The translations under genes were made by a program, and so were the position numbers. From a virus, in the IMG/VR virus record IMGVR_UViG_3300006104_000065, positions 1-25,605 of that record: a DNA stretch of 25,605 nt; one strand, given 5' to 3'. Under the pieces are notes generated by a model. The model was not told where the DNA came from. It searched no databases and saw nothing but the letters and a program-made list of their open reading frames with translations. This document shows positions 4,066 to 6,663 of this stretch, one piece after another (position 1 is the first letter of the stretch; every line of letters starts with the position of its first letter).

Positions 4066-6663
4066 TTAGAGCGCATCAGCCACGACACATGCCCACTCAG
4101 GCAATGGTGTTGCAGAAGGTCGTTAGCCTTCTTCTAGCACTTTCATGCTAGTTCAGATCATATCATATGAAGCCTTTCGACTCCATTTCTGCGCTTCGGT
4201 TCCACTTGGAACCTACTCCCTTACGGGATGATCGTTGGACCTTCGACTCTTTCGAAAAGCTTGGCTGCTGATTGCCCAATTCCTAACTTGTTCATCGTGC
4301 TTTCGCACTATACTAGGACTCTAAGGGTGTTCCAGCAATTCACAGAATTTAACGTGCGCCTTGAAGTGGTCAACGCACGAATAGATATCCGTAGAGAATC
4401 AATGTGTTAGTGAAGTTCGTTGATCCTTCACATTAGCTTTCGCTAATCTTACTGTTTCCAGTAAGTTCAGACTATATCATCATCCTTTTCAGGATGCATG
4501 GCGCTTCGGAAGCACTTGCTCCCTACTCCCCTTCGGGATAGTCGTTGCACCTTCCGATGTTTCCATCGGCTTGGCTCAGGATTGTCTTTTACCTTGCGGT
4601 AGTCAGAGTTTCCCTGAGTTCACCATGTTTTCAGTCATTCGTTACCGAATGACGGGACTATTCTAATCCAAGCGTGTAATGACTATTGTTTTCAATGGGT
4701 TAGCTACTCCCACCCTGCTCCTTAGCAGCTACACATCTCTGTGTAGATAAGACTATATCTTGCTAGATTTTCATCTAACCTGAGCATTTCGAGTTCGCTT
4801 GAACTCTACTCCCTTACGGGATAGTCGTTGAACCTTCACCTATTTCTAGGCGCTTGGCTGCTGATTGTCTAATCCCTAACTTGTTCATCGCCTTTCGGCT
4901 ATACTAGGGCTCTAAAGAGTTTCCAGCAATTAGCACAGTTTTAGATCAGCTCATTCTCGCTAACTGATCGGTAGAAACATTATCAATGATTTTCAATAGG
5001 CTCGTTGGACCTATCCGCCTTTCGGCAGCTGCATCTTTCAATGCAGGTAAGACTATATCACAACAGTTTCCTGTTCCAGGCATTTGGGTTCCACTTGGAA
5101 CCTACTCCCTTACGGGATAGTCGTTGAACCTTCACCTATTTCTAGGCGCTTGGCTGCTGATTGCCCAATCCCTTTCGGGCTCTAAGGGTGTCCCAGCAAT
5201 TAACCTGATTTATACAGCGCAAATGTTCACGCTGTTACCATACGCATCGAGATACCGTCGAACGCCTCACGAGCAGCTTCATGCACGCCGCGTGGCAATT
5301 CGAGATCCGCCGTCGCCATCGTAACCGCCTGAGGGGCGTAAACGATGTTCTTACGATAGGTGACGCTAGCAGGCGAAACCAACGTAATAGCAGCGGTAGG
5401 AGCCGGAGACGCTGTAACCGTCTGATACTGAACCGCGACACCACCAACGGCGGGCGTGATTGCAGGATAGATGGAAATAGACGTCGCACCGGTAGCCGCA
5501 GGCGCCGTAACAACGAACTGACGAAGATTGCCAGTTGTCGTCTTGGTGATGCGGTTGACCTGATAGACACCGGCAATCGTGATAATATCGCCTTGGGCGA
5601 GAGTACCTGTGATTGCGTTCGTCAACAGAGTCGTTCCAGTCTGTCCAGCCGTAGAAACTGTACCTGCCGAGAAAGTACCTGACGTGTGCTTGATAACAGT
5701 CTGGTCCATCAGCCAATCGAAGCCGAGGGCCTGCTGCATCATGCCTGTCTTGTACTGACGGCTGATTTCAGGAACCGGGTTGAACAAGCCTGCCAGGCTC
5801 GAAACAACGCGAGCTTGTGTGAAGGGGTCATTGACGACCTTACGTTCACCAAGCGGAGCGGAGTTCGAATCCAGCGAAGCGCCGGCATTCAAGTATGTAG
5901 AAGCAACTGGATTCAAGATATTGCCACTTCCGTCAACGTTAGCAACATAGTTGCAAACGCCGCCTTCAGTGCCGTTCATGATATCCGCCGCGACAGCACC
6001 TGCCAGGTTGTTGATGGCAGGAGCAAGGACGCGTTCAGAATAGTCATCCAAGCTCATCGTGCGGTCAGCGGAGCTGAACGACACATCGACACCTTTTTGG
6101 GTGGCGAGAACGAGCGTGGTGGACGTTTCTGCGGTATCTTGCACCGAGGCTGCGGCCCCCGTGCGAACGGTGTAGTCGTTAGGCAGGCGGATTCTCAGAG
6201 CTGTTCCGATTTTCGCACCTGTTTTCGCGAAGCTGTCGTCATCGCTTTTGTTGGAGGAGGTTCGTCACACTTCCCCACTCTTTCAAGTCTCAACCTTTCG
6301 ACTGAGTGCAGACTATATCATACTTCCTGCAACACGGAAGTCCATGCGCTTCGGATTCACTTGAACCCTACTCCCTTGCGGGATAGTCGTTGAACCTTCA
6401 CCTATTTCTAGGCGCTTGGCTGCTGATTGCCCAATCCTGTGTATTTTCAAGCCTTCACGATTTCCGTTTCCAGATGCGTTGTAGCTACACAGGCTCTAAG
6501 AGTATTCCAGCAATTCACACGGTTTTACTGCAACATGACAGGTTCAGCTTCTAACCTGTTGTTATCATTGCATATCAATATTCTGAAGGAACGCATTAGA
6601 GTTCTTCCAGAGACGAACCGCTTCACGAGTGATCATATTTATCGTAAGTAAGCTATTGCTCAT
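4066..6663 (-). CDS. Major capsid (coat) protein, P22 gp5-like, split into six exons by five group I introns
   Basis: Exons on the minus strand are 6663-6567, 6242-5229, 4983-4963, 4682-4666, 4399-4373 and 4101-4066. Joined they give 1212 nt, one frame of 403 codons plus a TAA stop. Exon 1 starts MSNSLLTINMITREAVRLW, a typical N-terminus of P22-like coat proteins. The large exon carries GAKIGTALRIRLPNDYTVR and ends at GISMRMVTA. The small exons add YNVSTDQ, FITRLD, ILYGYLFVR and PEWACVVADAL, which together match the conserved coat C-terminus. GAGGAG lies before the ATG. P22 coat is 430 residues, so the length fits. Without splicing, translation stops right after codon 32, and the large exon alone ends at a TGA inside an intron. 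The exon borders were deduced from base pairing, terminal G and frame, not from RNA data. Confidence 0.9.
4102..4372 (-). ncRNA. Group I intron 5 of the coat gene (271 nt, no ORF)
   Basis: The exon end CGTGCGT pairs with an internal guide GCGCACG, placing a U.G pair at the 5' splice site. The intron ends ...CCATTG before the codons for PEWAC. The P7 strands are GATCAT (plus positions 4228-4233) and ATGATC (4156-4161). The other four introns have GACTAT and ATAGTC instead, so two base pairs have changed together, which is strong evidence of a selected helix. The core AGCAGCCAAGC and the P7.1-like hairpin CCCGTAAGGG are present. The P7 extension resembles subgroup IA. Confidence 0.88.
4400..4665 (-). 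ncRNA. Group I intron 4 of the coat gene (266 nt, no ORF, most divergent)
   Basis: The exon end GGAT pairs with GTCC in the intron, giving a short P1 with U.G at the splice site. A GTCATTCG/CGAATGAC hairpin follows. P7 is GACTAT (plus 4538-4543) with ATAGTC (4470-4475). The core reads CCTGAGCCAAGC where the others read AGCAGCCAAGC, and the peripheral hairpins differ from the other introns. It ends ...CACATTG before ILYGY. Splice sites are a little less certain than for the other introns because P1 is short. Confidence 0.83.
4683..4962 (-). ncRNA. Group I intron 3 of the coat gene (280 nt, no ORF)
   Basis: The exon end GATCAGT pairs with GCTGATC, with U.G at the splice site. P7 is GACTAT (plus 4821-4826) with ATAGTC (4751-4756). 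The 50 nt at 4818-4867 are identical to the matching parts of introns 1 and 2. It ends ...CAATAG, and the next bases complete a Phe codon with the last T of the exon before. A CTACACA/TGTGTAG hairpin forms part of the P9 region. Confidence 0.88.
4984..5228 (-). ncRNA. Group I intron 2 of the coat gene (245 nt, no ORF, smallest)
   Basis: The exon end ACAGCGT pairs over seven bases with GCGCTGT, with U.G at the splice site. The core has GGGCAATCAGCAGCCAAGC, P7 is GACTAT (plus 5117-5122) with ATAGTC (5051-5056), and GAAA-capped hairpins occur in the P5 and P9 regions. The 50-nt block at 5114-5163 is identical in introns 1 and 3. The terminal G is at 4984, and the following AT completes a Tyr codon. 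Confidence 0.9.
6243..6566 (-). ncRNA. Group I intron 1 of the coat gene (324 nt, no ORF)
   Basis: It interrupts codon 33. The exon end TGCAAT pairs with GTTGCA, with U.G at the splice site, and a CAGGTTAG...CTGAACCTG hairpin sits in the P1 loop region. P7 is GACTAT (plus 6383-6388) with ATAGTC (6311-6316). The 50 nt at 6380-6429 are identical to introns 2 and 3. The P5 loop is expanded compared with intron 2. The first intron bases create an in-frame TGA, so unspliced RNA yields only a 32-residue peptide. Confidence 0.9.

Follow-up and report, generated by a model that had tools for sequence, protein, structure and literature searches.

Positions 4066 to 6663 of the viral record IMGVR_UViG_3300006104_000065 (here called the window, the whole 25,605-nt stretch of DNA that was analyzed) hold, on the minus strand, a P22-like coat protein gene interrupted by five group I introns (Table 1). 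The exon/intron map, read directly on that strand, places the introns after coding nucleotides 97, 1111, 1132, 1149, and 1176, and joining the six exons gives a single frame of 1212 nt (403 codons plus stop), compared with the 1386 nt to which the introns sum. The last 101 coding nucleotides hold four of the five introns, and the shortest exon is 17 nt long. An earlier reading of these letters, made without database searches (the original prediction), had given exons of 21, 17, 27, and 36 nt, the same exon and intron totals, the same 403-codon frame, and four introns within 65 coding nucleotides; every one of these numbers is correct on the direct map.

Table 1. Positions of the coat gene exons and introns and of neighboring genes in the window
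Feature	Positions	Strand	Details
Coat exon 1	6567..6663	-	97 nt, codons 1-32 + 1 nt; joined frame, start codon, L007 homology
Group I intron 1	6243..6566	-	324 nt; RF00028 54.3 bits; guide GUUGCA:UGCAAU; P10 6 bp
Coat exon 2	5229..6242	-	1014 nt; joined frame, PF11651
Group I intron 2	4984..5228	-	245 nt; RF00028 66.6 bits; in-frame stop at 5′ splice site
Coat exon 3	4963..4983	-	21 nt; joined frame
Group I intron 3	4683..4962	-	280 nt; RF00028 63.5 bits
Coat exon 4	4666..4682	-	17 nt; joined frame
Group I intron 4	4400..4665	-	266 nt; RF00028 86.8 bits; separate intron lineage
Coat exon 5	4373..4399	-	27 nt; joined frame
Group I intron 5	4102..4372	-	271 nt; RF00028 57.3 bits
Coat exon 6	4066..4101	-	36 nt including stop; joined frame
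Free-standing GIY-YIG homing endonuclease gene	6790..7620	-	PF01541 3.1e-6; directly upstream of coat gene
Free-standing homing endonuclease gene	3141..3905	-	NUMOD3, PHROG 314; directly downstream of coat gene
Head scaffolding protein gene	7691..8641	-	phrog_8865, 9e-24; upstream of coat gene

Homology and selection both support the joined frame as the coat gene. PF11651 (P22 coat protein) covers residues 1–397 of the joined protein and positions 1–419 of the 423 in the profile (8.9e-35), while the longest unbroken frame (305 aa) gives a match to the middle part only. Intronless relatives in IMG/VR (75–78% identity; 78% for L007) align over residues 1–403 and run ungapped through all five junctions, as expected from the claim that splicing at these points restores a P22-like C terminus. 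Nine residues encoded at or behind intron 2 (Y371, D376, R381, D383, L385, G387, R392, P393, and E394) are invariant in 24 coat proteins, and intron 2 splits the Y371 codon itself; because of their position, a coat ending at the terminal TGA of exon 2 would lose all nine. Gene callers place the end of coats like this one near residue 371, missing the C terminus. Over the last 36 codons, the window and L015 (a coat gene encoding an 84% identical protein) show 22 synonymous and 3 non-synonymous codon differences, and the small exons are therefore under purifying selection as coding sequence. The arrangement recurs unchanged in L006 and L026, contigs of two other IMG data sets, with introns 100% identical as far as the contigs reach. 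A P22-type portal (PF16510) and a terminase are also encoded upstream of the coat gene.

All five interruptions show the features of group I ribozymes. The original prediction had proposed a search with the Rfam group I covariance model as a check on its five blocks, and the model succeeds on every one: RF00028 gives five full-model matches of 54.3–86.8 bits (gathering score 50 bits) with E values of 2.1e-11 to 3.8e-21. With such scores, and with each match spanning the full model, chance is excluded for the five introns. A U precedes and a G ends each of them, and the predicted U.G pair at the splice site closes P1 in five of five. P1 with the intron's own 5′ exon measures 6, 7, 7, 4, and 7 bp in introns 1–5, and P10 with the own 3′ exon 6, 7, 5, 5, and 2 bp, whereas a matrix of guides against junctions shows P1 of at most 4 bp, and mostly 1–2 bp, with foreign junctions. 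The 17-nt exon 4 serves two ribozymes, as had been foreseen: P10 of intron 3 takes up the opening 5 nt and P1 of intron 4 the closing 4 nt, and these roles do not collide because the two parts do not overlap. An in-frame stop stands at the 5′ splice site of four introns and starts 14 nt inside intron 3.

The core structure is also conserved among relatives. Across 22 introns of this coat gene, taken from ten coat alleles, 97.9% of cells in P3, P4, P7, P8, and two more core helices are standard pairs, and double-sided changes number 135, against 42 in shuffles and 12–33 in slid controls; the covariation includes P3 and P7, the pseudoknot partners. Two hairpins, CCCGUAAGGG and a second one, follow the 5′ strand of P7 and precede the 3′ strand of P3, and they are candidates for the P7.1/P7.2 hairpins of subgroup IA2. 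The blocks had been described as sharing group I core elements, and all five are group I; intron 4, however, carries the core CCTGAGCCAAGCC, which marks another intron lineage, so that the five introns are not one uniform set. None of the five (245–324 nt) contains an endonuclease open reading frame (ORF).

The coat gene of L015 likewise has five introns. They follow coding nucleotides 73, 1104, 1122, 1162, and 1190, which reproduces the 1+4 layout of the window with zero sites in common, and its last four exons measure 18, 40, 28, and 22 nt, with a joined coat that is likewise 403 residues long. A screen of the family covered 427 loci, which represent about 278 distinct alleles, and found coat introns in 15 of these alleles. 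Fourteen sites could be mapped precisely (coding nucleotides 23, 66, 73, 90, 97, 102, 1104, 1111, 1122, 1132, 1149, 1162, 1176, and 1190), and all 14 fall within the first 102 or the last 110 nt of 1212; under a uniform spread, the chance of such clustering is near 0.175 to the 14th power, the sites being taken as independent. The two intron-bearing stretches are also the best conserved in protein (mean 0.77 and 0.79 vs. 0.67), and group I introns are expected in conserved stretches (PMC2814812). Another four introns, from coats further removed, are mapped with less precision: three lie near the 5′ end (L040, L045, and L544), while the fourth, in the deposited genome of Podoviridae sp. ctn9Y15 (L477:1501-3016), is an exception to the hotspot, the coat being annotated there as two coding sequences (CDS) split near codon 88. 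Intron content can differ between close relatives: L211 has three introns in the first 90 coding nucleotides, two of which are again separated by an exon of 17 nt, and L294, whose coat is 97% identical, has none in that stretch. Relatives with 0, 1, 2, 3, and 5 introns at 14 sites offer a natural series for the study of intron gain, guide re-targeting, and homing.

Some introns elsewhere in the family, and in other phages, differ in content or setting. Introns near coat codon 34 in L120 (2235-3000) and L544 (about 2240-3000) hold, as judged by eye, an HNH-like endonuclease frame, in contrast to the ORF-less introns of the window. In bajarodcaudo virus 1, a rodent-gut phage (L484), a fragment annotated as major capsid protein has a relative of window intron 1 next to it. 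In Phage C72C1 (L476), two CDS that carry the annotation "major head protein" are separated by an intron-like match, and they are probably one split head gene.

The surroundings and phylogeny of the introns bear on their mobility. Two GIY-YIG-type endonuclease genes bracket the coat gene of the window and, at matching places, that of L015, the corresponding endonucleases being about 30% identical. In the intronless L007, there is no ORF of at least 90 aa between the scaffold gene, the coat gene, and the next gene. An intron tree (IQ-TREE) pairs introns 2 and 3 and introns 1 and 5 of the window, pairs introns 2 and 4 of L015, and places window intron 4 beside an intron of an Aeromonas phage. 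A 47-nt core is identical in introns 1, 2, and 3 and, within IMG/VR, is confined to this phage; this private 47-mer and the sister pairs support some local copying. A single recent burst from one intron was rejected as the sole source, given that introns of other phages interleave and intron 4 is placed elsewhere. From the tree pattern and the private 47-mer, we conclude that the introns probably reflect separate arrivals together with local copying or conversion. By analogy with known systems, collaborative homing is most likely the natural reading of ORF-less introns beside free-standing endonucleases.

Taken together, the locus is very probably a single functional coat gene of a P22-like podovirus, with five group I introns that excise themselves. 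One RNA would be transcribed, the five ribozymes would cut themselves out with guanosine as the nucleophile, and the six exons would be joined to encode the 403-residue coat protein. The guide belonging to each ribozyme (P1 to the 5′ exon, P10 to the 3′ exon) would keep neighboring introns apart despite the 17-nt exon, and the in-frame stops, which begin no more than 14 nt past the 5′ splice sites, would bar ribosomes from the introns. The two bracketing endonucleases most likely spread and maintain the introns through co-conversion in collaborative homing, and introns of the same gene would to some extent have been copied or converted among themselves. Three observations weigh against this interpretation: intron 5 lacks a good P10, P1 of intron 4 is only 4 bp long, and the five introns do not form one clade in the tree, since introns of other phages fall between them.

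Alternative splicing could add a second product. Exons 3 and 5 are multiples of three and could serve as in-frame cassettes: if adjacent introns combined their splice sites, one or the other would be skipped in part of the transcripts, yielding a coat that lacks 7 or 9 C-terminal residues. Exon skipping is known for SIOphi (PMC11878797) and for Twort orf142, where the exon concerned is 23 nt long and has similar group I introns on either side (PMC10136302). Yet the guides in the window fit their own junctions only, skipping would remove residues that are invariant in relatives, exon 4 is not divisible by three, and the corresponding L015 exons (18, 40, and 28 nt) contain no conserved cassette, all of which makes such skipping improbable. 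The excess of intron over exon length might also be taken as a sign of gene decay, with splicing lost in some introns and either a defective phage or a coat truncated near residue 371 as the outcome. This is very hard to reconcile with five of five ribozyme cores intact, with three contigs that share the same sequence, and with the excess of synonymous over non-synonymous codon changes behind intron 2 in the comparison with L015, and we consider it highly improbable.

That repeats among similar introns were mis-assembled is barely credible. The 47-nt core shared by introns 1, 2, and 3 is the kind of repeat that could mislead an assembler, but L006 and L026 match at 100% across the introns, each intron has a guide, size, and flank of its own, and joining the exons yields a perfect frame. 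A different route to the same gene structure is multiplication by reverse splicing of one resident intron within its own gene, rather than endonuclease homing. The core that introns 1, 2, and 3 share with nothing else in IMG/VR and the sister pairs (2+3 in the window, 2+4 in L015) are consistent with this route, which we rate as unlikely although it deserves more weight than the other alternatives. Reverse splicing needs a donor guide that fits the target over about 4–6 bases (PMC3984707), and the five guides all differ; no reverse transcriptase was seen, none having been searched for, and conversion of the core would explain the shared 47-mer equally well.

Much shorter inserts interrupt the coat gene in two relatives, L155 and L224. 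A 55-nt insert lies at coat nucleotide 66 in L224 (2596-2650), and L155 has inserts of 46 nt (3595-3640, nucleotide 66) and 38 nt (3648-3685, nucleotide 73). All three are too short for a ribozyme core. Each has an in-frame stop, a preceding U, and a terminal G, and the contiguous guide (P1 plus P10) to the flanking exons is 12, 13, and 14 bp long in the 55-, 46-, and 38-nt inserts, respectively; the U, the terminal G, and a guide of 12–14 bp to the joined exons fit the rules of group I introns. Shuffles of the inserts, which keep base composition only, match the guide length in 0.21%, 0.01%, and 0.04% of cases, the insert boundaries having been chosen with homology and the G rule in view. Removing inserts and full introns leaves intact 408-residue coats in both relatives. 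The same sites are used by complete introns elsewhere, with a full-size group I intron at nucleotide 66 in L514 and full introns at nucleotide 73 in L015, L300, and L211, and the 79-kb L155 contig has two full group I introns in total, both in the coat gene. The coats of L155 and L224 are about 91% identical, so the two inserts at nucleotide 66 may share one origin. In a pattern scan for more inserts, only L155 and L224 encode this coat among the matches listed. Ribosome bypassing of the inserts is disfavored, as the triplet before landing (GTG, TTG) differs from the take-off codon ACT at nucleotide 66.

In sequence, the inserts look like deletion derivatives that are spliced by the core of a neighboring intron. 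It is quite possible, although we stop short of calling it probable, that crowded introns lost their core and persist as guide-only introns of 38–55 nt, spliced in trans by a full intron of the same transcript. Engineered group I "spliceozymes" show that such trans chemistry works (PMC4094466): in them, the core of a group I ribozyme excises an intron other than its own, as proposed for L155 and L224, but those constructs were engineered from Tetrahymena and a natural case would be new. If this proposal is true, the inserts and cores would together make up a natural spliceosome-like system in two parts, based on group I ribozymes, and, if the inserts are spliced, they would provide a bacterial-virus model for the parting of catalytic and substrate roles toward spliceosome-like systems. 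Six tRNA genes are clustered upstream of the intron-rich coat gene in L155 (388-963).

Published phage genes resemble the window gene in part. Twort orf142, a tail tube gene, has three group I introns and is similar in that several introns share one structural gene and two similar IA2 introns flank a 23-nt exon (PMC10136302). The window gene differs in encoding a coat protein and in having five introns and a shortest exon of 17 nt; moreover, splicing and exon skipping were demonstrated for Twort (PMC10136302), whereas splicing is predicted for the window. The capsid gene of mycobacteriophage LittleE contains an intron whose splicing was demonstrated by reverse transcription PCR, but this is a single intron of about 0.8 kb that encloses a predicted endonuclease frame (PMC3706429). 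Bastillevirinae phages (phiNIT1 and SIOphi) have genes with two or three introns each, a small exon that came to light only through cDNA, and exon skipping, although these concern mainly DNA metabolism and terminase genes and no capsid gene (PMC11878797). Collaborative homing in T4-like phages likewise involves ORF-less introns beside free-standing endonuclease genes (PMC3984707), while in the window two endonuclease genes, as putative homing partners, bracket five introns. Jug phage genes are broken into up to four fragments (PMC12363816).

The original prediction knew of no coat gene with five introns. No published contradiction was found, and in the open-access literature neither five mapped group I introns nor a 17-nt exon turned up for any phage gene. 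The statement nevertheless needs qualification, as L015 is a second such gene and a crAss-like (Zeta) phage (cMAG OLRF01000054) has a major capsid protein gene in five fragments, three of the gaps having intron-type domains (PMC7886860). The crAss-like gene belongs to an unrelated capsid lineage and has four gaps, which were recognized via the encoded domains, and we found no map of micro-exons for it (PMC7886860). What is new here is the second five-intron coat gene, the map of site hotspots, and a possible new intron derivative; the ribozyme class is known.

The arrangement also bears on the limits of group I splicing. Few phage genes are expressed as strongly as the coat gene, and five efficient splicings per message around a 17-nt exon would therefore test the limits of group I fidelity. 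It illustrates, within a single essential gene, how densely RNA parasites can pack. At the contig end, positions 25373-25600 of the window (minus strand) hold a low-complexity frame with RPTLRPTMRP-type repeats.
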